Virus record (IMG/VR): IMGVR_UViG_3300042261_001117
Span: 25,277 to 89,276 of that record
Length of the DNA: 64,000 bases
From: a virus
Strand: one strand, 5' to 3'
Shown: positions 6,040-56,782 of the stretch, in pieces
Numbering within the stretch: position 1 is the first letter of the stretch
Layout of the letters: each line of letters starts with the position of its first letter
Made by a program: the position numbers and the translations under genes
The notes under the pieces: generated by a model
Told to the model about the DNA's origin: nothing
What the model saw: the letters and a program-made list of their open reading frames with translations, nothing else
The model's database searches: none

Positions 6040-7194
6040 ATGATCGCCAAGTTCCTGCACCTCGCGGACCTGCACATCAACGCGCAGGCCACGCTGGCCG
6101 GGCAAGTGCGCGTCGGACCCAACGGCATCAACCTCCGCACCGCGGACCTGCTGCGCGCGATCGGCGCGGTGGCTGCGGAGGCGTCTCGCGACGGCGACCT
6201 GTTCGGCGCCGTCATCGCGGGAGACCTGTACGACCACGACCGCCCGACGCCGCTCGAGGAGGAGATCGCGGCGACGATCATCGAGACGCTCAGCGGCGCG
6301 TGCGCGGGCTGCAGTACGAAGGTGCTGGTGATCGATGGCAACCACGACATCCCGCGCGGGACGGGCCCGAGCGCACCGACGTCGCTGAACTGGCACCCGC
6401 TGGCGATGATGATTCACGATCCGGAGGTGGTCTGCTACTACGGGCTGCGGATCGGGTGTCTGCCGTACCCGCGCATCGGCGGCAACGCGGAGTTGCTGCG
6501 CGCGGGCGCGGTCGATGCGATTGCCGCGGGGCTGCGAGCGGGCGGCGCGGATGTGCTTGTCGCGCATGCGAACACAGGGCAGGCGGTGGCGGGCAAGCAG
6601 CCCCGCCCACTGGACGACGCGGTCACGCTCTCGCACGCTGTCCTGGCGCAGTTCCCGTGCGTGATGCTCGGGCATATCCACCGCCCGCAGGAGTGGGGCC
6701 CGGTCGCGTACTGCGGATCGCCGATGGTCGAGGACTGGGGCGAAGCAAACGACGGTACGGTGCGCGGCGCGGCGCTGTGGACGCTGGAGTGCGACGCAGA
6801 TCTGGCGTCGTCGCCGCCGGACTACACGGTGCGCTCCGCGACGCTGCGGAGACTCTCCGCTCCGGACAGGACGTGGATCGACATCCCGGCGGACCAGTGG
6901 TGCGAGGATTCCGTTGACCCGTCGTCGGGCGCGGTCCATCGTGTCAAGGGGCGGCTGCGGGCGACGGACGCCGCCGCGGTGCACGCGGAGATCAGATCGC
7001 TACGGGCGAAGGGCGCTCTGATCCAGGCGGAGATCACGATCGAGCAGGAGGACCGGCGCCGCAGCGAGGACGTGGCGCGTGCGCTGACCGACGATCAGAT
7101 CCTGCTGGGCGCGATCAAGCTGCGGCAGACCGATCCTGCGATCGTCGACGGCGCCATGGCGGTTGTGCAGGACATACTCGGGGGTGGAGCATGA
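6040..7194 (+). CDS. sbcD: SbcD/Mre11-like nuclease subunit
   Basis: 384 aa from the ATG at 6040 (AGGTGG upstream); a GTG at 6031 is a less likely start. The calcineurin-like phosphoesterase motifs are complete: DLH (10-12), GDLYD (61-65), GNHD (100-103), H176 in VAHANT, and GHIH (211-214). These ligate two Mn ions. The enzyme cuts DNA ends and hairpins when complexed with the SbcC/Rad50 ATPase, whose gene overlaps it by ATGA. Phages use such pairs (for example T4 gp46/47) for end resection feeding recombination-dependent replication. Confidence 0.93.
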   Translation: MIAKFLHLADLHINAQATLAGQVRVGPNGINLRTADLLRAIGAVAAEASRDGDLFGAVIAGDLYDHDRPTPLEEEIAATIIETLSGACAGCSTKVLVIDGNHDIPRGTGPSAPTSLNWHPLAMMIHDPEVVCYYGLRIGCLPYPRIGGNAELLRAGAVDAIAAGLRAGGADVLVAHANTGQAVAGKQPRPLDDAVTLSHAVLAQFPCVMLGHIHRPQEWGPVAYCGSPMVEDWGEANDGTVRGAALWTLECDADLASSPPDYTVRSATLRRLSAPDRTWIDIPADQWCEDSVDPSSGAVHRVKGRLRATDAAAVHAEIRSLRAKGALIQAEITIEQEDRRRSEDVARALTDDQILLGAIKLRQTDPAIVDGAMAVVQDILGGGA

Positions 7195-10413: not shown

Positions 10414-10431
10414 TGGCCGGTCGAAACGGGC

Positions 10432-10461
10432 TTGACGGGAGCGGCGCGAACGGCGTAGCGT
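10432..10461 (+). promoter_or_regulatory. sigma70-like promoter of pseudoknot RNA 1
   Basis: TTGACG (10432-10437), 18 bp, TAGCGT (10456-10461). Predicted transcription start is near 10467-10468, at the first arm of the structured element that follows. Confidence 0.65.
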
Positions 10462-10465
10462 GTTC

Positions 10466-10564
10466 GTGCAACCGGCTCTGTTCACCAATCAAGCTCTCGC
10501 GCCCCCCGGTGGTGGCGACTCTTCGGAGCCGGTTGCACCCACCACCGGGGGCCACGCGAGTTTT
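10466..10564 (+). ncRNA. Pseudoknot RNA 1 (new candidate family)
   Basis: No ORF covers this gap. Four arms occur in order A-B-A'-B'. A is GTGCAACCGGCTC (10466-10478) and A' is its exact complement (10526-10538). B is CCCCCGGTGGTGG (10503-10515) and B' is its exact complement (10539-10551). This gives two perfect 13-bp stems that interlock. A' and B' are directly adjacent, allowing coaxial stacking. A CTC-TTCG-GAG mini-hairpin (10519-10528) sits between B and A' and competes with A'. CTCGCG (10496-10501) and CGCGAG (10555-10560) extend the B stem and TTTT follows, so transcription may end here. The replication-initiator gene starts 33 bases downstream. It could be a small RNA or a 5'-leader regulator. 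A second element of the same architecture lies at 23898-24000. Confidence 0.6.
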
Positions 10565-10596
10565 GTGCGCTGGGCGTAGCGTGGCGAGGAGTGCGC

Positions 10597-11709
10597 ATGG
10601 GCGGCACTAGCTGGGTACGCATGGACGCAGCGTACGACGACCATCCGGACGTTCGGCGCGCTGGGCTTGAGGGTAGCGTGGTGTTTCAGGCGCTCGTGCG
10701 CAGATCGAAGCTGTTTGGCCTCGACGGCATCGTCAGCAAGAAGTACCTCGACGTGGAGTACCTAGCGGACGTGCTGAAAGCTCCACAGGACTTCATCCAG
10801 CGCGGGCTGGTGGCGTGCTTGCGCGTTGGACTGATCCGCGACGGCGATGGCGGCGTGACGATACCAGGGTGGGATCGCTTCCAGAGTCCCGACACGTTGC
10901 GGAAGCAGCGCTACACGGAACGGCACGGACGAGACGCAGCAGATGGTGCGCAGCAGGTTGATCCGTTCCTGTCCGTTCCAAGAACGGACGAGAACGGACG
11001 AGAACGGATTGGAACGGATTGTCCGTCTGACGTGACGGTACGTGACGAGACAGGACGTGACGAGACGCACGAGCACTGCGCGCGCGCGCGTACGCACGAG
11101 GATTCGACCCCAGCACCCGCCGCACCGACCACGCCGCCGCCTGATCCCGCGCGGCTCGCTGCGATCCGAAACGAGATGGCCATGGCGGACGCGCAGCGAG
11201 AAGCCGAGAGCGGCGTGCGTGTGCGCCCACTTCGCGTCGATCCGGAGCGCGAGGCCCGTGACGCCGCGTGGGCGGAAGAGATGGCGCTAGCGGCCAACGT
11301 CGCGCACGACGACGGCAAGATCCTCTCGGTCTACCAGCACTGGCTCGACTCCGCGGGTTTGCCTCCGCGCTGCATGTGCCCCGACGACCTGTACATGGGC
11401 AAGACGTTCCGACTGCTGGTGCTGGAGCGGCTGAGAGACGGGCTGACCTACGACGACATGAAGCGGGCGATCACGTCGTGCCACGGAAGCAAGCGGCATC
11501 AGGAGCGCGGCGTGTCGGGGTGGGGCGCTATCCTGCGGTCGCTCTCGACGGTGCAGGAGTTCATGGCAATCGCCAACGCGAAGGCCAAGCCGCAGCAGCG
11601 ATCGGGTAGGCTGTCTGACGAGGAATTCGCGAAGCGGTACGAGGAGCGCAAGGCGGAGAAGGCGCGGAACGAGGCGCTGCTGGCACAACACGGTCGGGGT
11701 CCGAGATGA
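10597..11709 (+). CDS. Replication initiator / replisome-organiser-like protein
   Basis: 370 aa; GAGGAG 6 bases before the ATG. Residues ~1-105 look like a winged-helix DNA-binding domain (FQALVRRSKLFGLDG, DVLKAPQDFIQRGLVACLRVGLI, ending WDRFQSPDTLRKQRYTERHG), as in phage O/DnaD-type initiators. Residues ~115-200 are a low-complexity linker. The C-terminal region (ILSVYQHWLDSAG, LLVLERLRDGLTYDDMKRAI) resembles domains that contact the helicase loader. The linker-coding DNA contains a phased repeat array (10962-11027), reminiscent of the lambda origin inside gene O. It is followed by a loader-like gene overlapping by ATGA. Confidence 0.6.
   Translation: MGGTSWVRMDAAYDDHPDVRRAGLEGSVVFQALVRRSKLFGLDGIVSKKYLDVEYLADVLKAPQDFIQRGLVACLRVGLIRDGDGGVTIPGWDRFQSPDTLRKQRYTERHGRDAADGAQQVDPFLSVPRTDENGRERIGTDCPSDVTVRDETGRDETHEHCARARTHEDSTPAPAAPTTPPPDPARLAAIRNEMAMADAQREAESGVRVRPLRVDPEREARDAAWAEEMALAANVAHDDGKILSVYQHWLDSAGLPPRCMCPDDLYMGKTFRLLVLERLRDGLTYDDMKRAITSCHGSKRHQERGVSGWGAILRSLSTVQEFMAIANAKAKPQQRSGRLSDEEFAKRYEERKAEKARNEALLAQHGRGPR
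10962..11027 (+). repeat. 10-bp-phased iteron-like array (candidate origin)
   Basis: The heptamer GAACGGA or its complement TCCGTTC starts at 10962, 10972 (complement), 10982, 10992, 11002 and 11012 (direct). A degenerate TCCGTCT follows at 11022. Spacing is exactly 10 bp, one helical turn, so all sites face the same side of the DNA. Ten is not a multiple of three, so the repeat cannot be an amino-acid repeat and the constraint is on DNA. The array lies within the initiator gene. Confidence 0.65.
11030..11062 (+). repeat. Second short repeat set, ACGTGACG x3
   Basis: ACGTGACG occurs at 11030-11037, 11040-11047 and 11055-11062 (spacing 10 and 15), directly after the phased array. The last two copies extend to CGTGACGAGAC. 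A purely alternating purine-pyrimidine run rich in CG follows at 11077-11096. Probably part of the same DNA-level element. Confidence 0.5.
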
Positions 11710-12407
11710 ACCAGACTCAATGGCGCACCCACTGGAACAGTTTGCTGATCGGGTACCAGCGACGAGACGCCAGCGAGGAAGAGGAGCTTCTGTACCTGGA
11801 GCACCTCGAGAAGTGGCAGCCGGAGATCGTCGCGGCTGCGGTAAACGCTGCACTGGAGGAGGAGTCGTACTTCCCGCGCATCCAGTCTCTGGTGTCGCGA
11901 TGCCAGCAGATCGAGCACGACGCCCGGCGGGAAGCTGCGAACTCAAGGCCACGACCGGCGGAGGAGTACGACGCGAACGCGCGCACGTACGCGTGCAGGA
12001 ACTGCCTCGACACGGGCATGATCGACTGCACGATTCCGCGCGGGAAGCATCTGATCGTCGGCATGGACGGGCGGCTGCGGTTCCGAGACGCGCGGTCGAC
12101 GTCGGTGACGTTCTACTCGAACTGCCGCGTGCGCTGCACGTGCGATCGTGGGCTGGCGAAGCCCGCGTCGTTCGGCGCGCTGTTCTCGCCGGTGATGTTC
12201 CGAGCGCTGGGCTGGTGGGCGAACAGGCAGCACGCGCACATCAACGCCATCCACGGCTTCCGGGTGTTCGCGTCGTCGGAGGAATACGTCGCGTGGGCGG
12301 AGGAGCAGGTTGGCAGGGTGGTGCCGGGCTCGCATCGAGCGCCGGATCGAGCGCCGGAGTATCAGGATCGGCGCGTGACCGACTTCGACAGCGAGGTGAA
12401 CTTCTGA
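11706..12407 (+). CDS. Putative helicase loader-like zinc protein
   Basis: 233 aa, starting in an ATGA overlap with the initiator gene. The N-terminal ~70 residues (YQRRDASEEEELLYLEHLEK and YFPRIQSLVSRCQQ) resemble the helical domain of small phage helicase-loader/inhibitor proteins. The middle has CRNCLDTG and, after a gap, CRVRCTC, a plausible split zinc ribbon. No Walker motif is present, so it is not a DnaC-type ATPase. The role is inferred from position between initiator and resolvase. Confidence 0.45.
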   Translation: MNQTQWRTHWNSLLIGYQRRDASEEEELLYLEHLEKWQPEIVAAAVNAALEEESYFPRIQSLVSRCQQIEHDARREAANSRPRPAEEYDANARTYACRNCLDTGMIDCTIPRGKHLIVGMDGRLRFRDARSTSVTFYSNCRVRCTCDRGLAKPASFGALFSPVMFRALGWWANRQHAHINAIHGFRVFASSEEYVAWAEEQVGRVVPGSHRAPDRAPEYQDRRVTDFDSEVNF

Positions 12408-12964
12408 TGGACACGCTGGTGGTGTCGGTTGACCCTGGAACGGTCGGAGCGGTGGCGGTCGTGCGCTATCCGCACGCGGCGGACGTCGCGTCGATCCGCA
12501 AGGCGGTGGTCGGCGTGATCGAGTGGGGGCGTCGTGCAGGACAGACGCTCGAGACGGGGTCGCTGGCAGGTGCGTGCGCGGCGGTGAGCGAGATCGAGAA
12601 GCTGATCGCCACGACGGGCGTCGAGCGGGTGTTCGTGCGCTGCGAGACGGTGTGGGTTCCCCGCGGTGGAGCAAAGCGCCCGACGTCTCCGAAGAGCTTC
12701 CTCGGGCCCGCGATGGCGCTGGGCTGCTTCCTGCCGCTGGCGAGACCGATCGGGTTCTACGAACTGATGGCGCCGGACGAGTGGCGCAAGCTGCAGGGAT
12801 GGACGTGGCCGCGCGGGAAGTCGCACCGCGAGCAGGCAAAGGCCTACGCCGAGCAGCGGGCACTGGCGTTCATGGGTGATTGGGGCATGTCAGACCACGC
12901 TGCGGAGGCGCTGTGCATGGGGCTGGTGCCGCCGCCGATGGAAGTCGCGCGGGGGAAGCGATGA
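12407..12964 (+). CDS. RuvC-like Holliday junction resolvase
   Basis: 185 aa; TGATG overlap with the previous gene. RNase H-fold acidic residues are in place: D9 in VSVDPGTVGA, E80 in RCETVW, and D163-H164 plus E167 in SDHAAEALCMG, matching the RuvC pattern. Such phage enzymes cut four-way and branched DNA before packaging. The basic segment between E80 and D163 fits a DNA-binding loop. Confidence 0.85.
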   Translation: MDTLVVSVDPGTVGAVAVVRYPHAADVASIRKAVVGVIEWGRRAGQTLETGSLAGACAAVSEIEKLIATTGVERVFVRCETVWVPRGGAKRPTSPKSFLGPAMALGCFLPLARPIGFYELMAPDEWRKLQGWTWPRGKSHREQAKAYAEQRALAFMGDWGMSDHAAEALCMGLVPPPMEVARGKR

Positions 12965-13383
12965 AGATCGTCCGCGTCTACTGCACGCACTGCGCGGGCA
13001 AGCACTCGCTGAATGGAAAGCGCGGTCGTCTGCGCTTCACGCCGACCGGGATCGGATTCCGACCGGACGGCGCGACGGAGTACATCGCGCTGAACGCCAA
13101 GACCGTCGAGGAGGGGCGCGTGACGATCGTGCTGAACGGCGGGCGCGACGAGCGCAGCGTGTCGGTGTTCGTTCGACAGCCGCTTCCGCCGGACCCCGAT
13201 CGCGCGCTTCGCGAGGTGCGCTCGGCTGCTGAAGCTCGCAACGGCAAGAAGCCGTCGCGGTGGACGGACGTCGAGCCACCTGCGGACGCTGACAGCGACT
13301 ACGGCATCGACCGTGCGCAGACCGGCGTCGATGCAGACGACCTGGGCATCGAGGAGTTCAACGACTCGAACGGGGATGAGTAG
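12961..13383 (+). CDS. Unknown protein with CxxC near N-terminus
   Basis: 140 aa; ATGA overlap with the resolvase gene. It begins with a short strand and CTHC, then a beta-rich region (YIALNAKTVEEGRVTIVLNG). The last ~40 residues are acidic and likely disordered (PPADADSDYGIDRAQTG). Not recognised. Confidence 0.6.
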   Translation: MKIVRVYCTHCAGKHSLNGKRGRLRFTPTGIGFRPDGATEYIALNAKTVEEGRVTIVLNGGRDERSVSVFVRQPLPPDPDRALREVRSAAEARNGKKPSRWTDVEPPADADSDYGIDRAQTGVDADDLGIEEFNDSNGDE

Positions 13384-13387
13384 CGCC

Positions 13388-13867
13388 ATGGGGTTTCCTC
13401 TGGATGCAGGGACACGCGCGTCGATGGTTGGCAGGAGGATCGTCGCCCTACCTGCCAGGACTGCAGCGGGCGTTGTGATGAGCGTCGACCTGATGTTCGC
13501 GACGTGTCTGGTCGACGAGGACGAATACGGGCGCGCGCTGCCGCCGATGGAGCACCGGCGCGCGCGCTACACGATCCCGCACTCTGGCGCGCAGCCGTGG
13601 GCGTTCGATCTTGAGCGGCCGGAGGATCGAGCGCGGTGGGCGCTGGAGATCGCCAACGCGGGATCCGCGGAGTACGCGCTGCGAGACGCGGTCGAGGTCG
13701 TTGCGAACTGCGGTGTGACGAACGACCAGATCGCGGACGCAGCACGCATGGCGCTGGTGTTTGACGGCAGCACGACGGCGTGGAACCTGCAGGGGCTGCT
13801 CGTGCTCGAGAACCTGCTGCGGAAGCAGCGCGGGATGCCGCCGCACGAGTTCGGCGGGAAGGAGTAG
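13388..13867 (+). CDS. Unknown protein
   Basis: 159 aa from the ATG at 13388. An in-frame ATG at 13376 overlaps the previous gene and would add four residues. Not recognised. Contains VVMSVDLMFATCLVDEDEYG and a helical C-terminus (NLQGLLVLENLLRKQRGMPP). It lies directly upstream of the radical SAM gene. Confidence 0.55.
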   Translation: MGFPLDAGTRASMVGRRIVALPARTAAGVVMSVDLMFATCLVDEDEYGRALPPMEHRRARYTIPHSGAQPWAFDLERPEDRARWALEIANAGSAEYALRDAVEVVANCGVTNDQIADAARMALVFDGSTTAWNLQGLLVLENLLRKQRGMPPHEFGGKE

Positions 13868-13870
13868 ACG

Positions 13871-14689
13871 ATGGCTGGGATCTACGAGCCTCGCGGGCGC
13901 GCACTGGAGTACAGCCCGCTGGCGCTCAACCTGTACAACGGCTGTGACCACGCGTGCTCGTACTGCTACAACCGGCGCATTTACCGGTCGAACTGGACGG
14001 CCGACGCGAAGCCCATGGCGTGGCTCACGCTCGACGCGCTGCAGAAGACGTGCGAGAAGTACGCGGGCAGCCTCGATCAGGTGCTGCTGTCCTTCGTCGG
14101 CGACCCGTACTGCGCGGCGGACGAACGCGAGCGCTGGACGCGCGTGGCGCTGGAAGCGCTGCTGCACAACCGCATTCCCGCTGCGGTGCTGACGAAGGGC
14201 GGCAATCGCTGTCTGCGGGACGTGGACCTGTTCCGCGCGTTCGGTCGGTCGATCATGGTCGGTGCGACCATCACCGGCATGGACGACCTCGAGTCCGGCG
14301 CCGCGACGAACCAGCATCGCTGCGACGTGCTCGATGAACTGGCTCGGTGCGGTGTGCCCACCTGGGCGTCGTTTGAGCCGGTCATCGACCCGGAGAAGTC
14401 GTTGGCGTGGCTGGCGTACGTGCTTGATCGCGGTGCGGTGTGGATGGTCAAGATCGGCAAGTGCAACCAGTGGGGCGGGTGCGACGACTCGAAGATCGAC
14501 TGGGCCAAGTTCCTGGCCAACGCGGTCGGCATCTGCGAGGAGTCGACGGTGCGGTACTACATCAAGGACTCGCTGTGGATCGCGGCGGGGCGGCCGGAGT
14601 TCGTGTACGTCAACCACGCGGTGGCGATGGACGACGGCCACCGCAACCCGCGGCTGTTCCAATCGGAGCCGTTCGGAAAGGTGGCATGA
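13871..14689 (+). CDS. Radical SAM protein (SplB/Rv2578c-like)
   Basis: 272 aa. Iron-sulphur motif CDHACSYC at residues 25-32 (C25, C29, C32), preceded by EYSPLALNLYNG, as in the spore-photoproduct-lyase-like radical SAM group. Later blocks include LSFVGDPY, AVLTKGGNRCLRD, ATITGMDD and WASFEPVIDPEKS, which fit the TIM-barrel strands. Radical SAM enzymes cleave S-adenosylmethionine to start radical chemistry. The phage substrate is unknown. Neighbouring nucleic-acid genes (RuvC-like, Dam-like) make DNA repair or base modification plausible. Confidence 0.85.
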   Translation: MAGIYEPRGRALEYSPLALNLYNGCDHACSYCYNRRIYRSNWTADAKPMAWLTLDALQKTCEKYAGSLDQVLLSFVGDPYCAADERERWTRVALEALLHNRIPAAVLTKGGNRCLRDVDLFRAFGRSIMVGATITGMDDLESGAATNQHRCDVLDELARCGVPTWASFEPVIDPEKSLAWLAYVLDRGAVWMVKIGKCNQWGGCDDSKIDWAKFLANAVGICEESTVRYYIKDSLWIAAGRPEFVYVNHAVAMDDGHRNPRLFQSEPFGKVA

Positions 14690-14985
14690 TGGCTGGCATC
14701 GCGATTCACTGCGGGCTGTCGGTGCGTGGCGCCATCCACCGCGCGTCTGCCACGAAGAAGCGCTCGTACCTGAAGGGCATGTTCAAGCACCCGAGCGGCA
14801 CGCGGTCTATGACGCCCGACGAGGCGTTCGAACTGCTGCTCGACGAGTTGTCGAAGGGACACGAGGTGCTTCCGTTCAGCGACTCGTGCAAGAACTGGGA
14901 CTGGAAGCACGGGTGCAGGTGCGCGCAAGTGGCGCGAGCGCAGGCAGAGCAGGTGTCCGGAAATTCCGGAGACGTGACGCCGTGA
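14686..14985 (+). CDS. Small unknown protein
   Basis: 99 aa; ATGATG overlaps the radical SAM stop, with two possible in-frame Met starts. It has a basic N-terminus (SATKKRSYLKGMFKHPSG) and a helical centre. It ends in a GTGA overlap with the methyltransferase gene, so the two are probably translated together. Not recognised. Confidence 0.55.
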   Translation: MMAGIAIHCGLSVRGAIHRASATKKRSYLKGMFKHPSGTRSMTPDEAFELLLDELSKGHEVLPFSDSCKNWDWKHGCRCAQVARAQAEQVSGNSGDVTP

Positions 14986-15869
14986 AGTCGCCAATCGTGT
15001 ACTTCGGCAAGAAGGCCTCGGTGGCCGACGTCATATGGGCGCGGCTCGGCGACGTGCGCCGGTACGTGGAGCCGTTCTTCGGGAGCGGCTCCGTGCTGCT
15101 CTCGCGCCCGGCGCTGCCGACGCGCGTCGAGATCGCCAACGACGACTCGGTCTACGTGGCGAACTTCTTCCGCGCGATGCAGTCAGACCCGGACGGCGTC
15201 GCGCGCGCTGCTCGATGGCCGAAGCACGAGTGCGAGATCGCCGCGCGACACCGCTGGCTGCTGGCCCGGCACGACGAACTGAAGCGCGACCTCATGGACA
15301 ACGCAGAGAAGTACGACGCGCAGGCGGCTGGATGGTGGCTGTGGGGCAACGCGGCGTGGCTCGGGAGCGGCTGGTGCACAGTCGGGCGGAACTGCAACCG
15401 GACGCAGGTTCCGCATCCGACGCCACAGGGGTACTGGGCCATCGACGACTTTGAGAGCTACGCCCGCGAGATGCAGGAGCGGCTGTTGCGGGTGATGTTC
15501 ATGTGCGGCGACTGGACGCGCGCGGTGACGACAGCGATGCTCGGGCTCCATGCTTCCAACTGCGTCACCGGCGTGCTGCTTGACCCGCCGTACGACGCTG
15601 GGACGGGCGCGTTCTACACGAGCGACCAGCGGTCGGTCTGGCACGACGCGCAGCGGTGGGCAATCGAGCACGGCGACGACCCCGGACTGCGGATCGTGCT
15701 CTGCGGGTACGACGGCGTCGGCGAGGCGATGCCGCCAGAATGGGAAACGGTGCACTGGGACACCGGAGGAGCCTACGGCACGGCAGAGAGCACCGCGAAC
15801 AAGGAGAACGGGAAACGCGAGGTGCTGTACTTCTCGCCGCACTGCAACCGCCAGATGGCGCTGTTGTGA
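14982..15869 (+). CDS. Dam-like DNA adenine-N6 methyltransferase
   Basis: 295 aa from a GTG start overlapping the previous stop. Motif I (SAM binding) is FFGSGS (32-37) and motif IV (catalytic) is DPPY (201-204). A helical region with the sequence YDAQAAGWWLWGNAAW lies between them, as in D12-class enzymes. The N-terminal VYFGKKASVADVIWARLG is the family's usual opening. It methylates adenine-N6, probably to protect phage DNA from host restriction or to mark it. No cognate restriction gene is adjacent. Confidence 0.88.
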   Translation: MKSPIVYFGKKASVADVIWARLGDVRRYVEPFFGSGSVLLSRPALPTRVEIANDDSVYVANFFRAMQSDPDGVARAARWPKHECEIAARHRWLLARHDELKRDLMDNAEKYDAQAAGWWLWGNAAWLGSGWCTVGRNCNRTQVPHPTPQGYWAIDDFESYAREMQERLLRVMFMCGDWTRAVTTAMLGLHASNCVTGVLLDPPYDAGTGAFYTSDQRSVWHDAQRWAIEHGDDPGLRIVLCGYDGVGEAMPPEWETVHWDTGGAYGTAESTANKENGKREVLYFSPHCNRQMALL

Positions 15870-15907
15870 TGTCGCGATGCGAAAGCAAGACGCGCACCGG
15901 AACGGCA

Positions 15908-15937
15908 TTGACGCCGTTGGCAACCTGTGTTGAGAAT
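15908..15937 (+). promoter_or_regulatory. Possible promoter
   Basis: TTGACG (15908-15913), 18 bp, GAGAAT (15932-15937). The -10 element is weak. It lies in the 106-base gap before the gene at 15976. Confidence 0.4.
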
Positions 15938-15975
15938 GGGCGCGACGGTAGCACACGATGAAAGGAGCACCTCCC

Positions 15976-17370
15976 ATGCCGCGACACCGAACGACCACCC
16001 CCGACGAGCGCAAGCGCAAAGCGCTCGAGGCGAGGCGCGAGCCGATCAAGCTCGCGTCGCTCGTTAGCACGCTCAAGCTTCAGATCGACGACCTGCAGCG
16101 CAAGCTCGCGTCGGCGGACGCGCGGACGGCGCAGGCCGTCGGCATCGCCACGCACGAGCTTCGCGACGAACTCGAGCGCTTCCGCGCGGCGAAGGCGGTC
16201 CACGTGCCGCACCAGTTCGCGGACGAGGCTCGCAGCGCGGTCGAGAAGCTCGCGACGGACTTCCTCGCGCCGCTCTCGGAGCGGTGGAACGCGCTCGATC
16301 AGACCAACGTCCGCATGCGCGAGGAACTGAGCGCCGCGCTGGACCGCGAGCAAGCGCTGCTCGAGCGTGTCGAGTCGTCCGCCCGCGACGACGCGGCACT
16401 GATCGGTGAGATGAACGCGGCGAAGGCCGCGCAGATGGAACTGCTACTGGCGCTCCGCAACGCGTACGAGGACGGCGTCGCGCCGCCGTGGCTGGTGCGG
16501 TTCGCCAAGGCGTTCCACGACGCGCCGAATGGCAAGCTGAAGGACGAGCAGGCGACGGCGCTGTTCAACCGCGTCTACCGCTGGGCGATGGAGCAGGCGC
16601 GCGACGCCGCGCGCGACGTCAAGTCCGCGCTGGAGCGCGCGCGCGACGCGGCGTCCAAGAGCCCGCAGCCGCTGCAGGTCGGAACGTCGGCGGATGCAGG
16701 GCCGGGCTCTGCCGACAACGCGAAGGTGATCGAGGTCGCGGACGCGCTCGGCGTCCGGCTGGTCGATCCGGTCGCGGAGGAGTGGGAGTTGCGCTGGGTG
16801 GACGAGGACGGCAACCTCGCCATCGAGGTCGTGAGCGCGAGCCCCGCCGCAGTGGCGCAGGAGATCGCGGCGATCGTCCGCAAGCGGCCGATGCTCCGCA
16901 ACGTGATGGTCGAGACCAACGGCGTGGGCTCGATCGTGTACGAGACGCTGCGTCAGGAAGACCTGCAGGTGTGGGTGGAAGCGCACGTGACGACGAACGC
17001 CTCGCCGTTCCCGGAGCCCGCGCTGATGCGTCTGCCCGCGTGCGGGCACCGCAAGATGAAGGAGCCGGGCGAGTGCGACAACACCGCGACGCAGGAGCGC
17101 GACGGCGGGCTGGCGGTGTGCGGGCAACTGAAGCCGGGCGTGATCGACGGCAAGCCGGTCCCTCCCGCCGGGTGCGCGCACTACGAGATGCTGAACGCCG
17201 CGTCGAAGTCCGCTGGCGCCATCCGCGAAGCGCTCGAGCACACGGTCGGAGAAGAGCCCGGCGTCCCGATGCCCGGCGACAAGCCGAACTGCCACATCCC
17301 CGTCTCGTTCCGCGTGGTGAAGGACGACGAGGCGGTCGACGAGCAGCACCAGAACGGGGTGACGCCATGA
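15976..17370 (+). CDS. Unknown coiled-coil protein with cysteine-containing C-terminus
   Basis: 464 aa from the ATG at 15976, preceded by AAAGGAG; an upstream in-frame ATG at 15958 precedes that ribosome site and is rejected. Residues ~10-230 are strongly helical with heptad-like Leu/Ala spacing (LVSTLKLQIDDLQRKLASAD). From ~245 there is a compact region (ADALGVRLVDPVAEEWELRW). Residues ~345-400 hold several cysteines (LPACGHRKMKEPGECDN, AVCGQLKPG), possibly a zinc site. The OB-fold/HD nuclease gene follows with an ATGA overlap. Confidence 0.65.
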   Translation: MPRHRTTTPDERKRKALEARREPIKLASLVSTLKLQIDDLQRKLASADARTAQAVGIATHELRDELERFRAAKAVHVPHQFADEARSAVEKLATDFLAPLSERWNALDQTNVRMREELSAALDREQALLERVESSARDDAALIGEMNAAKAAQMELLLALRNAYEDGVAPPWLVRFAKAFHDAPNGKLKDEQATALFNRVYRWAMEQARDAARDVKSALERARDAASKSPQPLQVGTSADAGPGSADNAKVIEVADALGVRLVDPVAEEWELRWVDEDGNLAIEVVSASPAAVAQEIAAIVRKRPMLRNVMVETNGVGSIVYETLRQEDLQVWVEAHVTTNASPFPEPALMRLPACGHRKMKEPGECDNTATQERDGGLAVCGQLKPGVIDGKPVPPAGCAHYEMLNAASKSAGAIREALEHTVGEEPGVPMPGDKPNCHIPVSFRVVKDDEAVDEQHQNGVTP

Positions 17371-18308
17371 AGCTCGCCAACTGCCAGACGGGCGCGGCGT
17401 TCGGGCTCGATCTGCTCGTGACCGACGTGTCGACTGGCAAGACCAAGAAGGGCTCCCCGTACCTGTCGTTGATGCTGAGCGACGGTGTGGATCGGATCAG
17501 CGCGCGCTGGTGGGACTGCGACAACGCGGACGGCGCGGTGCAGAAGGGCTCGATCTACTACGTGACCGGCAACATCAACGAGTACCAGGGCGAGCGGCAG
17601 GCGATCGTGGCGAGCATGGCGCCCAGCGACGCGGCGCCCGAGGACTTCATGCCCCGCAGCGCGACGACGCCGGAGCTTCTGTTCGGGCGCATCGACCACT
17701 ACATCCGCACGATCGCATCGGAGCCGCTGCGCGAGGCGGTGGCGACGCTGGTGCAGGGGCTGTGGCACGATCGTTTCTACGCGGCACCCGCGGCGTCGTC
17801 CAACCACCACGCCCGCGTCGGCGGGCTGGCGGAGCACACGCTGTCGATGCTCGACGAGTGGGCGGCGCTGGCGCCGGTGCTGGACCGCTGGCACCCGGAC
17901 CTGCTGGACCACGACGTGATGGTCGCGGGCATCGTGCTGCACGACCTCGGCAAGGCGGTGGAGATCGAGTCGACGCCGGGGTTCCCGTACAGCACGCACG
18001 GGCAGATGCTCGGGCACATCCCGATGGCAGCCATCGCGGTGCGAGGTGCGCTCGGCGACTACGCGAACACGGAGCGCGGGCTCCGCGTGCTCAACTGCAT
18101 CCTGTCCCACCACGGCAAGCTGGAGTGGGGCAGCCCGGTGGTGCCGCGGTGCCCCGAGGCGGTGTTGCTCCACGAGATCGACATGCTCGACAGCAGGATG
18201 GAGCACTTCGCGCAGTTGGTCGCGAATGGCGTGGGCCAGGACGGATGGACGGAGCGCGACAAGCTGTTCGACGGGGCCATGCGCGGTCCCATGCAGCGGG
18301 AGGACTGA
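17367..18308 (+). CDS. YhaM-like OB-fold/HD-domain 3'-5' exonuclease
   Basis: 313 aa; ATGA overlap. Residues 1-85 are an OB-fold (FGLDLLVTDVSTGKTKKGSP, IYYVTGNINEYQGERQAIV). Residues ~130-300 form an HD phosphohydrolase domain: HH at 147-148 in NHHARVGGLAEHT, HD at 192-193 in VLHDLGK, and LSHHGKLEWG. This layout and length match the Gram-positive YhaM/CBF1 family of Mn-dependent 3'-5' exonucleases acting on RNA and single-stranded DNA. Here it probably processes RNA or DNA 3' ends during early infection. Confidence 0.85.
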   Translation: MKLANCQTGAAFGLDLLVTDVSTGKTKKGSPYLSLMLSDGVDRISARWWDCDNADGAVQKGSIYYVTGNINEYQGERQAIVASMAPSDAAPEDFMPRSATTPELLFGRIDHYIRTIASEPLREAVATLVQGLWHDRFYAAPAASSNHHARVGGLAEHTLSMLDEWAALAPVLDRWHPDLLDHDVMVAGIVLHDLGKAVEIESTPGFPYSTHGQMLGHIPMAAIAVRGALGDYANTERGLRVLNCILSHHGKLEWGSPVVPRCPEAVLLHEIDMLDSRMEHFAQLVANGVGQDGWTERDKLFDGAMRGPMQRED

Positions 18309-18311
18309 CCG

Positions 18312-18734
18312 ATGGACCAGAACGATCGTTTATGGACGCTGGACGAGTTCGGCTGCTCGTGGATGACGCGCGAGGACGGGTCGCTCGCGCAGGTGGTGCT
18401 GCTGGACCGCCGCAACGAGGTGCTCGCGCGCTTCTACGCGCAGTCGCACGGCGGCAAGATCCGCTTCCCCGGCTTCGTGATCAACGAGGAGCAGGAGGAG
18501 GCCTACGTCGACGAGTACAAGACCGAGTCGGCGGCGAAGAAGGAACTGCTCGGCGTGGCGCTGCTCTGCCGCATCGCGCGGCTCGAGGAGACCGTGCGCG
18601 TGGCCACCGCCAAGCTCCGCCACACCGACCTGATCGGCGACGCCGCCATTGCCAAAGACCTGCTCGACAGCGCGCTCGCGCCGAAGTCGCAGGCCTTCGA
18701 CGACGGGCTCGACGAGCCCCCCACGGAAGTCTGA
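18312..18734 (+). CDS. Unknown protein
   Basis: 140 aa. N-terminal half is beta-rich (AQVVLLDRRNEVLARFYAQ), then a helix-rich region (SAAKKELLGVALLCRIARLE). Not recognised. It is the last gene before a promoter and terminator pair. Confidence 0.6.
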   Translation: MDQNDRLWTLDEFGCSWMTREDGSLAQVVLLDRRNEVLARFYAQSHGGKIRFPGFVINEEQEEAYVDEYKTESAAKKELLGVALLCRIARLEETVRVATAKLRHTDLIGDAAIAKDLLDSALAPKSQAFDDGLDEPPTEV

Positions 18735-18737
18735 GGA

Positions 18738-18767
18738 TTGCGCTGGGCGCAGACGACGTGGTAATCT
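18738..18767 (+). promoter_or_regulatory. sigma70-like promoter
   Basis: TTGCGC (18738-18743), 18 bp, TAATCT (18762-18767). Expected start near 18774, only ~12 bases before the terminator stem. Confidence 0.55.
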
Positions 18768-18785
18768 CCGACCGCTCCTTCCCCG

Positions 18786-18830
18786 CCCCTGCAGGACGTG
18801 ACGCCCCACGACACCGCAGGGGTTCTTTTT
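18786..18830 (+). terminator. Intrinsic terminator / attenuator-like hairpin
   Basis: CCCCTGC (18786-18792) pairs with GCAGGGG (18816-18822). An inner CGTG/CACG helix (18797-18800 and 18807-18810) caps it, and TTCTTTTT follows. The ribosome site GAGGAGG for the next gene begins right after the T-run. It either terminates the upstream operon or attenuates transcription from the promoter at 18738. Confidence 0.75.
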
Positions 18831-18843
18831 GAGGAGGCATCCC

Positions 18844-20292
18844 ATGGCACGAAAGCGATCGGCAGCGGACCAGACGCCGCTGACCATCGACGACCTCGCA
18901 TCCGACCCCCGCAACCCTCGCACCATCTCGGAGACCGCGCTGGCTGGGCTTGACGTGTCGGTGACGACGTGGGGCGACCTGTCGGGCATCACGTTCAACC
19001 GCAGCAACGGGCAGTTGATCGGCGGGCACCAGCGGGTTCGTCTGCTGCGCGCAGCCGGAGCGCAGGTGCAGTACGACGAGCGGGGCCCGTTCCTGGTCGA
19101 CCCGCGCACCGACGAGCGCTTCCCGATCCGCGTGGTGGACTTCGACGAGGAGAACCACCTCGCGGCCAACCTCGCAGCGAACGCGCCAAACCTGCAGGGT
19201 GAGTTCTCGGTCGACGCGTTGCCGATCTTGGAGTCTCTGTCCGAAGACCTGCCGGACCTCTACGGGTCGCTCGGGTTTGACGCGCTGGCGGAGACGCTCG
19301 GCGCGCAGTTCAAAGAGCCCGACGCCGGTGGCCCGCGCACGACCACGCCCGGTGAGCACGACGACGACGTCCCGCCAGCGCCCAAGAATGTCGTCAGCCG
19401 GACGGGAGACATCTGGTGCATCGGGAAGCACAAGCTGATCGTCGCGGACGCGGGAGATCGCGCGGCCATCGCGAAGCTGATGGGGGGGGGCGTCGCGGAT
19501 CTGTGCTTCACCAGCCCGCCGTATGGCCAGCAGCGCGAGTACAAGAGCGGTGGCATCAACGACTGGGACAAGCTCATGCAGTCGGTGTGCGCGGCTCTTC
19601 CGATGGCGCAGGACGGGCAGGTGCTGGTGAACCTGGGGCTGATCCACCGCGACAACGAGTACATCCCGTACTGGGAGCGGTGGATCGAGTGGATGCGGTC
19701 GGAGGGGTGGCGGCGATTCGCGTGGTACGTGTGGGACCAGGGAGCGGGCATGCCCGGCGACTGGGGCGGTCGGCTGGCTCCGGCGTTCGAGTTCGTGTTC
19801 CACTTCAACAAGGCGTCGAAGCATCCGAACAAAATTGTGGAGTGCAAGAACGCGGGAAAGGTGTCGCATGGCGTGGGCGGCGACGGTCTTCGCGGCAAGG
19901 ACGGCGAGTTCGGGACGTGGCAGCATGGCGGATCGCCGACGCAGTCGCATCGCATTCCAGACTCTACGATCCGCATCGAGCGACACCACGGAGCGATCGG
20001 CGACGACATCAGCCACCCCGCGGTGTTCCCGGTGGCGCTTCCGATGCACGTGATCGAGGCATACTCGCAGCACGGAGACGTGCTGTACGAGCCGTTCTGT
20101 GGCTCCGGGACCACGATCATCGCGGCGGAGCGCACGGGTCGCGTCTGCCGCGCTGTCGAGCTAGCGCCGGAGTACGCGGACGTGACGCTGGCGCGGTTGT
20201 CGCAGGTGTTCGAGAACATCCAGATCACGCTCGAGTCGACAGGCGAGGCGTACGAGGTGGTCGCGGCTCAACGGGACGGAGGTGACGCGTGA
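18844..20292 (+). CDS. ParB-like domain fused to DNA methyltransferase (TSPPY type)
   Basis: 482 aa. GAGGAGG precedes the ATG. Residues ~10-130 are a ParB/Srx-type domain (DDLASDPRNPRTIS, NGQLIGGHQRVRLLRAAGAQ). The methyltransferase domain follows, with motif IV TSPPY (223-227) before motif I FCGSGTT (418-424), the beta-class order. TSPPY is commonest in N4-cytosine enzymes, but specificity cannot be settled from the motif. The next gene is a paralogue with the same domain layout and a GTGA overlap. A run of nine G bases lies at 19492-19500. Confidence 0.88.
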   Translation: MARKRSAADQTPLTIDDLASDPRNPRTISETALAGLDVSVTTWGDLSGITFNRSNGQLIGGHQRVRLLRAAGAQVQYDERGPFLVDPRTDERFPIRVVDFDEENHLAANLAANAPNLQGEFSVDALPILESLSEDLPDLYGSLGFDALAETLGAQFKEPDAGGPRTTTPGEHDDDVPPAPKNVVSRTGDIWCIGKHKLIVADAGDRAAIAKLMGGGVADLCFTSPPYGQQREYKSGGINDWDKLMQSVCAALPMAQDGQVLVNLGLIHRDNEYIPYWERWIEWMRSEGWRRFAWYVWDQGAGMPGDWGGRLAPAFEFVFHFNKASKHPNKIVECKNAGKVSHGVGGDGLRGKDGEFGTWQHGGSPTQSHRIPDSTIRIERHHGAIGDDISHPAVFPVALPMHVIEAYSQHGDVLYEPFCGSGTTIIAAERTGRVCRAVELAPEYADVTLARLSQVFENIQITLESTGEAYEVVAAQRDGGDA

Positions 20293-21614
20293 GCGAGCAG
20301 AAGTTGCTGAGCATCGACGAACTGGCAAGCGCTCCATGGAACCCACGGACCATCAGTGATGCGGCACTGAGTGGGCTCGGCGGTTCGATCAAGGCGTTCG
20401 GCGACCTCGCTGGGATCGTCTGGAACGCTTCCAACGGGCAGTTGGTCTGTGGCCACCAGCGCATCAAGGTGCTGCGCGCCAAGGGTGCGACCATCGAGCA
20501 CGACGAACGCGGGCCGTTCATCGTGGACCCGGAGACCGGCGAGCGCTTCGGAATCCGCGTGGTCGAGTGGTCGGAGGATCGCCACGTGGCAGCATGCATC
20601 GCGGCCAACAACACCGCGATCACCGGCGAGTTCACCGCGGACACACTCCCCATGCTCCAGTCGATCGCGGACGACGATCCCGCGCTGTTCGCTGGTGCGG
20701 GCTTCGCACCGCTGCTCGAAGCGCTCGGGATGCAGTTCTCGGACACGCGGAAGGCCGGGCAGAGCGATCCGGACCAGGACGTCGCGCCACCTGCGCCCGA
20801 GGAGACCATCACCAAGACGGGCGACATCTGGCTGTGTGGGCCCCACCGCGTGGCGTGCGGCGACTCGCTGAAGGACGAAGACCTTGTGCGCCGCCTGTTC
20901 AACGGAGGGCTGGCGGACATGACCTTCACCGATCCGCCATACAATGTGAACTACGGCGAGACGATGAAAGACAAGCTTCGCGGGCCGAAGCACAAGAAGA
21001 TCGCCAACGACAACCTCGGCGCGGACTTCCCGGCGTTCCTGCTGGACGCGTGCAAGGTGATCATCGCGTGGACGAAGGGCGCGTGCTACGTCTGCATGTC
21101 GTCGTCGGAGTTGCACTCGCTGCAGAAGGCGTGGCTGGACGCCGGAGGGCACTGGTCGACGTTCATCATCTGGAAGAAGCACACGTTCACGATCGGCCAC
21201 GCTGACTACCAACGGCAGTTCGAGCCGATCCTCTACGGATGGGGCGAGGGCACGAAGCACTTCTGGTGCGGGGCCCGGGACCAGGGCGACGTGTGGGAGA
21301 TCGACAAGCCGAGCCGCAGCCCGCTGCACGCGACGACGAAACCGGTGGCGCTGGCGGAACGCGCGATCGTGAACTCCTCGAAGAGCCGCGACACGGTGTT
21401 CGAGCCATTCTGCGGGTCGGGCAGCACGCTGATCGCGTGCGAACGTACCGGGCGCATGGCGCGCACGTGCGAACTCGATCCCAGCTACGTGGACGCGCAG
21501 GTGGCGCGGTGGATGGCGTACTGCGGCGGGCAGGCGGTGCGCGAGTCGGACGGCTACAAGTTCCCGCTGGACGCTCCGGTGTTCAAAAAGGTCGCGGAGC
21601 AGAAGGATAAGTAA
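20289..21614 (+). CDS. ParB-like domain fused to DNA methyltransferase (DPPY type)
   Basis: 441 aa from a GTG overlapping the upstream stop. Same architecture as its neighbour: ParB-like residues ~5-120 (LASAPWNPRTISDAAL, NGQLVCGHQRIKVLRAKGA), then methyltransferase motif IV TDPPYN (214-219) and motif I FCGSGS near 375. DPPY with beta-class order is typical of N6-adenine enzymes. The pair looks like a duplication that diverged in the catalytic motif. Likely role: modification of phage DNA against restriction. Confidence 0.9.
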   Translation: MSEQKLLSIDELASAPWNPRTISDAALSGLGGSIKAFGDLAGIVWNASNGQLVCGHQRIKVLRAKGATIEHDERGPFIVDPETGERFGIRVVEWSEDRHVAACIAANNTAITGEFTADTLPMLQSIADDDPALFAGAGFAPLLEALGMQFSDTRKAGQSDPDQDVAPPAPEETITKTGDIWLCGPHRVACGDSLKDEDLVRRLFNGGLADMTFTDPPYNVNYGETMKDKLRGPKHKKIANDNLGADFPAFLLDACKVIIAWTKGACYVCMSSSELHSLQKAWLDAGGHWSTFIIWKKHTFTIGHADYQRQFEPILYGWGEGTKHFWCGARDQGDVWEIDKPSRSPLHATTKPVALAERAIVNSSKSRDTVFEPFCGSGSTLIACERTGRMARTCELDPSYVDAQVARWMAYCGGQAVRESDGYKFPLDAPVFKKVAEQKDK

Positions 21615-21642
21615 GCTCTCGCGCATCGGGTCACAATTCTTT

Positions 21643-21671
21643 TTGACAACGCGCGTGGCGCGGGCTACGCT
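21643..21671 (+). promoter_or_regulatory. sigma70-like promoter
   Basis: Consensus TTGACA (21643-21648), 17 bp, TACGCT (21666-21671). In the transcript, CCACC (21688-21692) can pair with GGTGG (21700-21704), leaving the AGGG of the ribosome site in the loop. Confidence 0.75.
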
Positions 21672-21706
21672 CTCCATCGACAGCAGACCACCAGGGCGAG
21701 GTGGCG

Positions 21707-22204
21707 ATGGACCAGGACTTCCGCGGCAGCACCTACGATCCGAACCAGGACCGCGACCGCCTCATGAACTACACGCAGCGGGTGTTCTCGCTGCTGCTCG
21801 ATGGTGCGTGGCACACGCCCGCGCAGTTGCGCGAGGTCGGCGGCGGTGAGTGGTCGCGGCGCGTGCGGAACCTCCGCGAGCCGCGCTTCGGGGGCTTCTC
21901 TGTCGACACCTCGCGCGACCCGGACAAGCCGGGCAAGTGGCTTTACCGGCTGCTGGACGTGGACCAGATCTCGCAGGCTCAGATCGACGCGGTGATGCGC
22001 GGCGACGTGGACGACCGCAATCCGCTCGCGCCCAGCACGCAGAAGGACCGCGAGACGCGGCTGCGGAAGTGCATCAACCGCCGCGTGGGCCGCATGCCGG
22101 AGGACTGGCTGCGGATGCTCGAGCAGTGGATGACGCACGGGCTTCCGGTGGAGATGGCAAAGCGGCAGGCTGCGAGCGCGCAGCAGGCCGCGCTGAGGTT
22201 GTAG
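21707..22204 (+). CDS. Winged-helix-like protein
   Basis: 165 aa; GCGAGG precedes the ATG at 21707. Residues ~20-70 (TQRVFSLLLDGAWHTPAQLR, EWSRRVRNLREPRFG) look like a small winged-helix domain. The basic C-terminal half (ETRLRKCINRRVGRMPEDWL) ends in a helix. First gene after a consensus promoter, so possibly regulatory, but not a recognised family. Confidence 0.6.
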   Translation: MDQDFRGSTYDPNQDRDRLMNYTQRVFSLLLDGAWHTPAQLREVGGGEWSRRVRNLREPRFGGFSVDTSRDPDKPGKWLYRLLDVDQISQAQIDAVMRGDVDDRNPLAPSTQKDRETRLRKCINRRVGRMPEDWLRMLEQWMTHGLPVEMAKRQAASAQQAALRL

Positions 22205-22213
22205 GGGGTGACG

Positions 22214-22444
22214 ATGGACCGCGCACCGGAGCCGTTGCTGGACGAGTACAAGGGCTTCAAGCTCAAGCACAACTGGCAGAACCCATCGCCCATGGGCTGG
22301 ACGACGAAGGCCTACTACGACGGCGTCCTGATCACGCTGGACCGCGACGCGAACGATCCGCTGAAGTCGCAGGCGGGCGTGCTCATGGTGCTCGACACAC
22401 TGTGCTACTGGGCGGACAACGAGCGGAAGCACAGGGAGAAGTAG
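22214..22444 (+). CDS. Small unknown protein
   Basis: 76 aa from the ATG at 22214, with AGGGGGTG upstream. Not recognised. Contains YKGFKLKHNWQNPSPMGW and a helix with VLDTLCYWADNERK. Ends immediately before the next ATG. Confidence 0.55.
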   Translation: MDRAPEPLLDEYKGFKLKHNWQNPSPMGWTTKAYYDGVLITLDRDANDPLKSQAGVLMVLDTLCYWADNERKHREK

Positions 22445-22747
22445 ATGCGCCTCCAGATCGAGATCCCCGACGAAGAACTGGCGCGGTCGATCGCGGCGAA
22501 CCTACTGTCGCGGCGCGATGGCAGAGCGCTGCTAGACGACGTGCTTCGCCGCATCGGGCCAGCACTCGACGCCGCAGTGCTGAACGCCGCTCTCCCTCTG
22601 GTCGAACGCGCGACGCGCACGTCGGTTTCGCAGATCGTTGAAGTGCGCGCTCGGCGGATGATGGGTAAGGACCAGCCGCTCAAGACGGCTGTCGACGAAG
22701 CGGTGCGGAAGCGCGTCGAGCAGCTTCGGATCGGAGGTGGGCTGTGA
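22445..22747 (+). CDS. Small helical protein
   Basis: 100 aa, directly adjacent to the gene before it. It begins MRLQIEIPDEELARSI and is mostly helical with basic residues toward the end (EAVRKRVEQLR). Not recognised. Ends in a GTGA overlap. Confidence 0.55.
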   Translation: MRLQIEIPDEELARSIAANLLSRRDGRALLDDVLRRIGPALDAAVLNAALPLVERATRTSVSQIVEVRARRMMGKDQPLKTAVDEAVRKRVEQLRIGGGL

Positions 22748-23406
22748 CCGAGTTCGTGAGCCCGCAGCACCTGCGCGACCTGTGGGACTGGTACGTGCGC
22801 GAGTGCCCCGACGTGAAGATCGACGGCAACCAGATGACCACGCCGGAGGGGTGGGTGCTGGTGCGACCGCCGGAGCCCGTCATCCCCGTCGTCGAGAGCG
22901 ACGCCATGCCGTTCGACGCGCTGCTGGCGATCTGTAGCGGTGGCCAGCCGGTGGGAGCGATCAAGAACCTCAAGTCGCCCAAGTTCGATCCGGAGACGGA
23001 AGCGGCGCTCGCCGCCATGGCGCGCGATGCCGACGAGCACTGCGACCGCACGGAACGACAGCGCTCCGCGGTGATGAGAGCGCTGTGGATGGAGTTCGGC
23101 GCGAACACGTGCACGCTCAACTACCTCGGCGGCCATGACTGCGGGCGGTCGATCATGGTGACGCCCGGTGGTGAACTCGCGTTCGACACGAGCGGGAAGT
23201 ACGCGCTGCGCCCGAAGATGACCACGACCAGCCGACAGGTCTTTGCCATCGCGAAAACCGCGCTCGAAGTGTTCCCGCGAGCGGAGATCGTCTGGTCGCT
23301 CGAGTGGTCGATGTCGGCGTACGAGCGCCGCGGGTTCGAAGAGATGCACGAAGTGCAGATGCGCGACCAGTTGTTCGACGCGATCGGAACGGAGGACCCG
23401 AAGTGA
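22744..23406 (+). CDS. Unknown protein
   Basis: 220 aa from a GTG. Not recognised. Residues ~90-130 are helical (AALAAMARDADEHCDRTERQ), followed by a beta-rich part (TLNYLGGHDCGRSIMVTPGG). Ends in a GTGA overlap with the secreted transglycosylase-like gene. Confidence 0.55.
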   Translation: MTEFVSPQHLRDLWDWYVRECPDVKIDGNQMTTPEGWVLVRPPEPVIPVVESDAMPFDALLAICSGGQPVGAIKNLKSPKFDPETEAALAAMARDADEHCDRTERQRSAVMRALWMEFGANTCTLNYLGGHDCGRSIMVTPGGELAFDTSGKYALRPKMTTTSRQVFAIAKTALEVFPRAEIVWSLEWSMSAYERRGFEEMHEVQMRDQLFDAIGTEDPK

Positions 23407-23888
23407 TCTCATCCTTCCTCGCGCTCCCGTCCGTCGCTCTGGCGTTGCTGCTGGCGCCGGACGCACGGGTGTCCACGTACCGCGCACTCGAGGTCGCGCT
23501 GGCGTGCGAGGCGTCGTGCCGCGGGACGCTGGTGCGCCCGGATGAGTGTGTAGCGCTCGCGTACGTCGAGACGCGGTTCAGACCGGAGCGCGTGAGCGCG
23601 AAGGGGTGCATTGGTGTCGTCCAGGTTTCGGTCTGCAACTTGCTGGTCGCAGGTCGTCGCGTGAACGCACCGGCAGCGGGGCCATGGGACGTCCACTGCA
23701 TCGCTGGCGGGATCGATGCGGGTGTCCTGGCGGCAGATGCACTGAAACGCGCGCACGGGGCATTGTGGCCCCGATTTTACGGCTGTGGCACGAAGGCGGC
23801 GCGCAGGGGCGACAGAGCGTGTGTGCAGCACGAGATGCGCGTCTACCGCGCCATGAAGCGACTTGCTAGTACGGCGCCGGTGTCGTAA
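23403..23888 (+). CDS. Secreted lytic-transglycosylase-like protein
   Basis: 161 aa from a GTG start. N-terminal hydrophobic signal ([17 protein letters not shown]). The segment ALAYVETRF with Glu56, followed by [11 protein letters not shown], matches the SLT-type pattern E-S/T-x-F...S..G..G..Q, in which the Glu is catalytic. Seven or so cysteines suggest disulphides in the periplasm. It may cut peptidoglycan during lysis or entry. Its location among early genes is unusual. The promoter of the next element lies inside its 3' end. Confidence 0.6.
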
Positions 23889-23891
23889 AAT
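23863..23891 (+). promoter_or_regulatory. sigma70-like promoter of pseudoknot RNA 2
   Basis: TTGCTA (23863-23868), 17 bp, TAAAAT (23886-23891). Expected start is about 23898, exactly the first base of the structured element that follows. Confidence 0.7.
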
Positions 23892-23897
23892 GATCCC

Positions 23898-24000
23898 GCT
23901 TGTGACCGCTTGCTTCGGCAAGCACGACAACTTGGTTCCTCACGGTGGCGGTGGGCATCTTCCCTTCGGGGCAAGCGGCACAAGCAACCACCGCCCCGTG
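23898..24000 (+). ncRNA. Pseudoknot RNA 2 (same architecture as RNA 1)
   Basis: Four arms in order X-Y-X'-Y'. X (23898-23912) pairs with X' (23972-23985) over 14 bp with one bulged A (23905). Y (23941-23954) pairs with Y' (23988-24000) over 13 bp with one bulged T (23946). A CCC-TTCG-GGG hairpin (23962-23971) sits between Y and X', and only AA separates X' from Y'. A local hairpin GCTTG-CTTCGG-CAAGC (23908-23923) can compete with X. Arm order, the UUCG mini-hairpin, near-zero X'/Y' spacing and the promoter position match RNA 1 (10466-10564), but the first-stem sequences are unrelated. No T-tract follows; the HNH gene starts 25 bases downstream, so this may be its leader. Confidence 0.6.
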
Positions 24001-24024
24001 GGGAGCCTCGCTTACGGTGCTGAA

Positions 24025-24690
24025 ATGCCACGAAAAGCGCTATATGGTGACGATCGCCTGGGCGCTATCATAAACATGATTGCAGTAAAGTCGATTGTTA
24101 AAGACGGATGTCTGATATACACTGGTTGTAAGGATGGTAGGTACCCATACGCGGAGGTGGATGGTCGCCATATTGCATTAAGCAGACTGATATACGCGAT
24201 TGTTTTTGGCAACATACCGGATGGTATGTACGTATGCCATAGATGCGACAACAAGCGCTGTGTAAACCCGGATCACCTGTTCATTGGCACACCGGCAGAC
24301 AACACGCACGACATGATGAACAAAGGGCGTCAAAGATTCGATTTGTCGCGTCCCGGGCGGGCGGCGGAGGTCGGGAATATAGGGTGGAGCGGAAAAACGA
24401 CAAGGGGACAACGCATCGTTGAGTTATTACGCGACGGAGTTGAGCGAACAACGCGTAATGTTGCAGAGCATCTTGGGTGCGATGTGTCTGCGGCAAAGCA
24501 AAGTTTGAAACTAGAACAAGAACATGGGAGAATCAATGTAAGGAAAGTCGCGCTTGTTACAATAAAAACCGGCGCAGTGCCAATATCACGCACAAAAAAA
24601 CGCTATCGCGAGTCCAGTAGGCGCTTGGTTAGTATGTGGTCAATACACTGCAATACGCTTGCCATCCTACGACACCGGAAGGAGACCTGA
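24025..24690 (+). CDS. HNH endonuclease (homing type)
   Basis: 221 aa. HNH motif in [20 protein letters not shown] (from about residue 69), with the two Cys pairs of a zinc-bound beta-beta-alpha fold and NPDHL. It is followed by DNTHDM, typical of free-standing phage HNH homing enzymes. The C-terminal part ([20 protein letters not shown]) looks like an HTH DNA-binding region. Base composition is clearly AT-richer than all neighbours, a sign of recent arrival. The ATG at 24025 has a poor ribosome site. No split gene was seen around it. Confidence 0.88.
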
Positions 24691-56761: not shown

Positions 56762-56782
56762 GACAGCGACTTCGAGGCCTAG

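Follow-up and report, generated by a model that had tools for sequence, protein, structure and literature searches.

Genes and operons around the two elements

The window, i.e., the whole stretch of 64,000 nucleotides that was analysed, sits within an 89,276-bp virus record. The gene map, in which almost every gene is on the + strand, is that of a tailed phage, with genes for a terminase, a portal, a head protein, a head protease, and a tail fibre. Also present are an SbcD/SbcC-like gene pair (6040-9524; all coordinates are those of the window unless stated otherwise), two adjacent ParB-like DNA methyltransferases (phrog_498; 18844-21614), and a gene (32886-33212) that contains long stretches of degenerate CGGCTACGGCGACGG repeats. 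The G+C content of the record is about 67%, and intergenic DNA makes up 4% of it.

Two elements with predicted interlocked stems, copy 1 and copy 2, lie on the + strand. Copy 1 occupies most of the 183-nt gap at 10414-10596, ahead of the replication operon. The gene on its 3' side (10597-11709, + strand) shows a weak match to a phage replication initiation family (phrog_16167, E = 6e-4); its ATG at 10597 is preceded by a GAGGAG ribosome site, and 36 nt separate the end of copy 1 from this start codon. Iteron-like direct repeats, AGAACGGACG and then TGACGAGACAGGACG, are found within the same gene (10961-11066) and suggest that, as in lambda O, an origin lies within the gene for the initiator.

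Copy 2 lies after the gene that closes one operon (23403-23888) and before a gene for an HNH_3 endonuclease (24025-24690, + strand; PF13392, E = 4e-11), the ATG of which, at 24025, matches the start of its homologues in the alignment. With 49% G+C versus about 67% around it, the HNH gene is probably a later insertion 3' of copy 2. As it looks inserted, copy 2 probably once stood ahead of the operon that starts at 24692 and that is now split by the HNH gene. A 45-codon frame is open across copy 2; the calculated chance of such openness at the local G+C is about 30%.

Predicted interlocked stems of copy 1 and copy 2

In both copies the arms follow the order A, B, A', B', where A:A' would form stem 1 (P1) and B:B' stem 2 (P2). 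In copy 1, arm A (10466-10480) pairs with A' (10524-10538) over 15 bp including one G-U, and arm B (10496-10515) pairs with B' over 13 contiguous and 6 further bp; B' (10539-10560) is followed by UUUUGU, and this 3' end (CGCGAG-UUUUGU) is a possible weak terminator. A UUCG hairpin, P3 (CUC-UUCG-GAG, 10519-10528), can be read from the sequence; it includes the first 5 nt of A' and would compete with the inner 5 bp of P1. In copy 2, arm A (23898-23913) and A' (23971-23985) form 15 bp with one bulge, and arm B (23934-23954) and B' (23988-24007) form 20 bp with one bulge and two G-U pairs. Its P3 (CCC-UUCG-GGG, 23962-23971) overlaps A' by 1 nt, and a local hairpin, GCTTGC-TTCG-GCAAGC (23908-23923), is an alternative for the 3' half of its arm A. 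The end of copy 2 is at 24007, which corrects the one given in the earlier note, and no U-run follows it (GGGGAGCC-TCGCTTACGG). No terminator was called at either copy by a tool that accepts loops of 3-8 only.

The entire record was screened blindly for compact A-B-A'-B' stems, with no sequence input. A stem-contiguity score was used in place of an energy-only pseudoknot ranking, which was non-discriminating in this G+C-rich genome. The screen yielded exactly copies 1 and 2, so that both of the pseudoknots described in the earlier note were recovered independently: they ranked first and second with scores of 14.9 and 14.3, and the next best score was 8.6. Among 1,000 dinucleotide shuffles of the record, the top score was 12.0 and the best second match 11.0, with none reaching 13. 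The Gumbel P for one such element is about 7e-5 per record, and this record holds two. Approximately 2.5 Mb of other fetched loci, mostly viral and screened on both strands, gave a maximum of 11.3, in an A+T-rich stretch. In addition, the stem 2 helices rank first (copy 2) and third (copy 1) among the local stems of the record. Two screen matches in other contigs were rejected for not having the same layout, one lying inside a coding gene (L199) and the other being a 10/13-bp interlocked repeat with almost no loops between tail genes (L037). The latter repeat (2569-2616 of L037, from an unrelated phage) is perfect, and pairing is conceivable between its loop and the region of the following ribosome site.

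The layout is shared to a degree that bears out what had been proposed for the UUCG position, the arm order, and the near-zero A'/B' spacing: the hairpin is directly 5' of A' or overlaps it in both copies, the A'-B' gap is 0 nt in copy 1 and 2 nt in copy 2, and 15 nt separate A from B in either copy when measured by the screen boundaries. Stem 1 likewise has unrelated letters that nevertheless pair, since the two stems are 15 bp each and only 5 of the 15 pairs are identical, about the level of unrelated stems. Stem 2 had been described as the same in both copies; this does not hold, as similarity is confined to the apical 8 bp (GGUGGUGG/CCACCACC versus GGCGGUGG/CCACCGCC) of a stem with 19 bp in total in copy 1 and 20 bp in copy 2.

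MAFFT did not align the arms of copies 1 and 2. As the copies cannot be aligned as homologues, the change of bases with kept pairing does not amount to phylogenetic covariation, and the earlier claim to that effect was overstated: it concerned two non-alignable copies, with no homologous locus in another phage. A third member is absent from every collection searched, and the only two copies are in one record. The proposed structure is thus backed by statistics and position, not by phylogeny, and on these grounds selection on the predicted shared fold is well supported.

By a rough estimate with a penalty of 9.6 and loop terms omitted, the pseudoknot of copy 1 has an energy of about -62 kcal/mol compared with -46 kcal/mol for the nested fold, and that of copy 2 has -61.5 compared with -58 kcal/mol; on the same rough estimate the knot is favoured by about 16 and 3 kcal/mol, respectively. 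For copy 1, chain-length arithmetic (2.8 A per base pair and about 6 A per loop nucleotide) leaves room for P1 and the inner 13 bp of P2 together but not for both full-length stems in one coaxial stack. The full P1 and P2 would be sterically tight, and the outer part of P2 may be partly open. A co-transcriptional switch is possible in copy 2, where the hairpin at 23908-23923 could form first and the 3' half of arm A then pair with A'.

Promoters and relatives of the phage

Copy 1 is preceded by the promoter TTGACG-N18-TAGCGT (10432-10461, + strand), which follows the pattern TTGAC-N17-19-TANNNT. The -10 given for it earlier needed correction, as TAGCGT matches TATAAT at 3 of 6 positions. The record contains six sites of this pattern on the + strand, five of them intergenic, and none on the - strand, and the same motif is kept upstream of the protease gene in a relative, L004. 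Because of the intergenic and + strand bias and the one site kept in L004, this is very likely a real promoter type of the phage lineage. The other five TTGAC promoters of the record have no such knotted leader. Upstream of copy 2, a promoter-like site, TTGCTA-N17-TAAAAT (23863-23891, + strand), matches 9 of 12 consensus positions, with one such site found in the stretch versus 0.1 expected; it is without TTGAC and falls within the upstream gene.

The two sites stop 4 nt (copy 1) and 6 nt (copy 2) before arm A, the distances being as stated in the earlier note. From the promoters, transcription is expected to start at the beginning of arm A, and thus of P1, in both copies (about 10466-10468 in copy 1). 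The fixed promoter offset, the common orientation, and the three G-U pairs point to RNA, more than to DNA, as the form under selection. The proposal of a selected RNA fold in place of a DNA operator is supported by improbable pairing, common orientation and layout, a predicted start at arm A, and G-U pairs, but not by covariation.

One kin, L004 (12.7 kb), was found when viral and genome contigs were scanned by single proteins, by alignment, and for motifs, and this best relative does not cover the region of either copy. No match to either element was found by blastn against phages or in cultured phages. Plasmid matches by blastn in Streptomyces and Nonomuraea (E = 8e-4 and 3e-3) were judged to be chance similarity, being short and partial with the partner arms absent; they fall in coding sequence wherever a gene table exists. 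With Rfam 15, only a tRNA was found in the window at the gathering score, and focused scans by E-value gave nothing credible. An HNH-associated RNA of the HEARO or omega type was rejected as well, since 80 HNH loci were without such an element and copy 1 has no HNH neighbour.

Ahead of its protease and capsid genes, the late operon of the phage has a promoter (TTGACA...GATACCCT) and a leader hairpin (together 56732-56829), the promoter-proximal hairpin itself spanning 56782-56829. Its position is kept in L004 (6456-6550 of that contig), its base is AAGAGGCG...CGCCTCTT in both phages, and the letters of its upper stem are rewritten in L004 with the pairing persisting. This shows, at the level of predicted pairing, that the lineage retains a structured promoter-proximal leader under sequence change, in this case a plain hairpin. 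A GCGA-loop hairpin is also seen directly after the major head protein gene of both phages (59926-59969; 9691-9722 of L004), with different stem letters.

Possible roles and known counterparts

We tentatively favour the reading that the elements are structured 5'-terminal RNA leaders that would act in cis on two operons, the replication-initiator operon (copy 1) and the operon now interrupted by the HNH gene (copy 2). Transcription would begin at arm A of each element, and P1 would form between the 5' end of the transcript and the 3' portion of the loop in P2, a long stable hairpin. With the UUCG hairpin in between, a knot would close the first 100 nt or so of the transcript. The likeliest task of such a knot would be to protect and insulate the operon mRNA at its 5' end, hiding that end from 5'-end-dependent decay; read-through or translation of the operon might be tuned as well. 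Protection of the 5' end would fit best because the sequence is free and the topology fixed, as a mechanical shield would need. On the other hand, a plain hairpin would suffice for this purpose, and the knot itself is unaccounted for by a cis-acting leader. Among the three roles suggested in the earlier note, one in cis fits the positions best; nothing specific was found for a decoy of a host defence factor.

The main rival, which we consider less probable, is that the elements are discrete genes for trans-acting small RNAs of about 100-110 nt, e.g., a protein decoy or regulator, with their own promoter and both ends in stems. It owes this rank to the UUUUGU after stem 2 of copy 1, a possible weak terminator that would release a small RNA. 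Each copy would have its own promoter, closed ends with free sequence suit an RNA recognised by shape, and a phage pseudoknot decoy has a precedent in phiTE. However, copy 2 lacks the U-run, no terminator was called at either site (again with loops of 3-8 only), and no toxin-antitoxin neighbour was found at either copy. Neither would a single decoy need two divergent copies at operon starts.

A bolder form of the cis-acting leader, which we regard as fairly unlikely, is a new class of phage RNA, a 5'-end lock, in which the first transcribed nucleotides are threaded into the loop of a long hairpin, shielding operon mRNAs against 5'-end-dependent decay. It would work by topology alone and hence without conserved sequence.

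Unlikely, too, are leaders for processive antitermination as in HK022, where nascent RNA binds RNA polymerase and downstream terminators are passed. The two promoter-proximal copies would suit it, but the put RNAs of that phage share sequence and these elements share only the top of P2. In addition, the downstream operons contain few intrinsic terminators and thus have little evident need, and Rfam offers no credible match. A translational operator, with a phage protein such as the product of 10597-11709 binding its own leader pseudoknot as T4 gp32 does, is improbable: copy 1 is suitably placed, ending 36 nt ahead of the coding region of a replication-type gene, but the genes after copy 2 are unrelated and the stem letters are wholly different between the copies.

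A feature at the DNA level, i.e., an operator, a hairpin substrate for the SbcCD-like nuclease of the phage, or the end of a mobile element, is quite improbable. The SbcD/SbcC-like genes at 6040-9524 would be in keeping with it, as would an 11-bp direct repeat, GGCGTAGCGTG, that flanks copy 1 (10452-10462 and 10573-10583). However, the record has 21 direct repeats of at least 11 bp at 80-160 nt spacing outside one repeat gene, so this one is not clearly above background, and no repeat of at least 6 bp flanks copy 2; a mobile element is thus unsupported. The shared orientation and promoter offset and the G-U pairs also speak against DNA. Chance inverted repeats are highly improbable, for a genome of 67% G+C yields many weak stems, but both elements score above 14 and no shuffle reaches 13.

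Leaders with a kept shape and free sequence escape the usual homology searches. If the pair is real, sequence-blind topology screens beside promoters could reveal more such phage RNAs, and with a knotted leader at the 5' end it would be simple to test whether phage mRNA can be stabilised, or RNA polymerase steered, by topology alone.

In HK022, two put RNAs of about 70 nt lie downstream of early promoters with their 5' region in duplex; each consists of two stem-loops, the copies are similar in sequence, and no pseudoknot is reported (PMC9378689). The elements resemble them in having two copies per phage, a promoter-proximal position, a structured 5' region, and a length of about 70-100 nt. 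Membership was nevertheless rejected, as put stem-loops are adjacent and alike between copies, whereas here the topology is A-B-A'-B' and the P1 stems share 5 of 15 pairs. The gene 32 leader of T4 and RB69 has, 67 nt before the start codon, a pseudoknot whose two stems are stacked coaxially, together with an A+U-rich operator (PMC3014915). This, too, is a pseudoknot in a phage leader ahead of a replication gene, a position that fits copy 1 only; the elements described here differ by their long stems, the UUCG hairpin, the 0-2 nt A'-B' junction, and the start at the predicted +1. Phage phiTE is described as escaping ToxIN through an RNA mimic, a pseudoknot decoy, and type III antitoxins (ToxI) and this mimic are, according to the same source, also small pseudoknotted RNAs encoded by a phage in the latter case (PMC3475682). 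ToxI is made of repeats beside an RNase toxin gene; copy 1 has no tandem repeats and neither copy has a toxin homologue beside it, and a type III antitoxin was rejected.

HDV-like ribozymes have the order P1-P2-P3-P3'-P1'-P2', with a P1 of 7 bp, a P4, and a J4/2 strand with the catalytic C between P1' and P2'. The order of the elements is identical, but they are without P4 and without a joining strand before P2' for a catalytic cytosine, and their P1 is 15 bp; with an A'-B' spacing of 0 and 2 nt and no Rfam match, an HDV-like ribozyme was ruled out. If the first nucleotides were indeed locked in the loop of P2 so as to shield operon mRNAs, such leaders would in principle be an analogue of the exonuclease-resistant RNAs of eukaryotic viruses.
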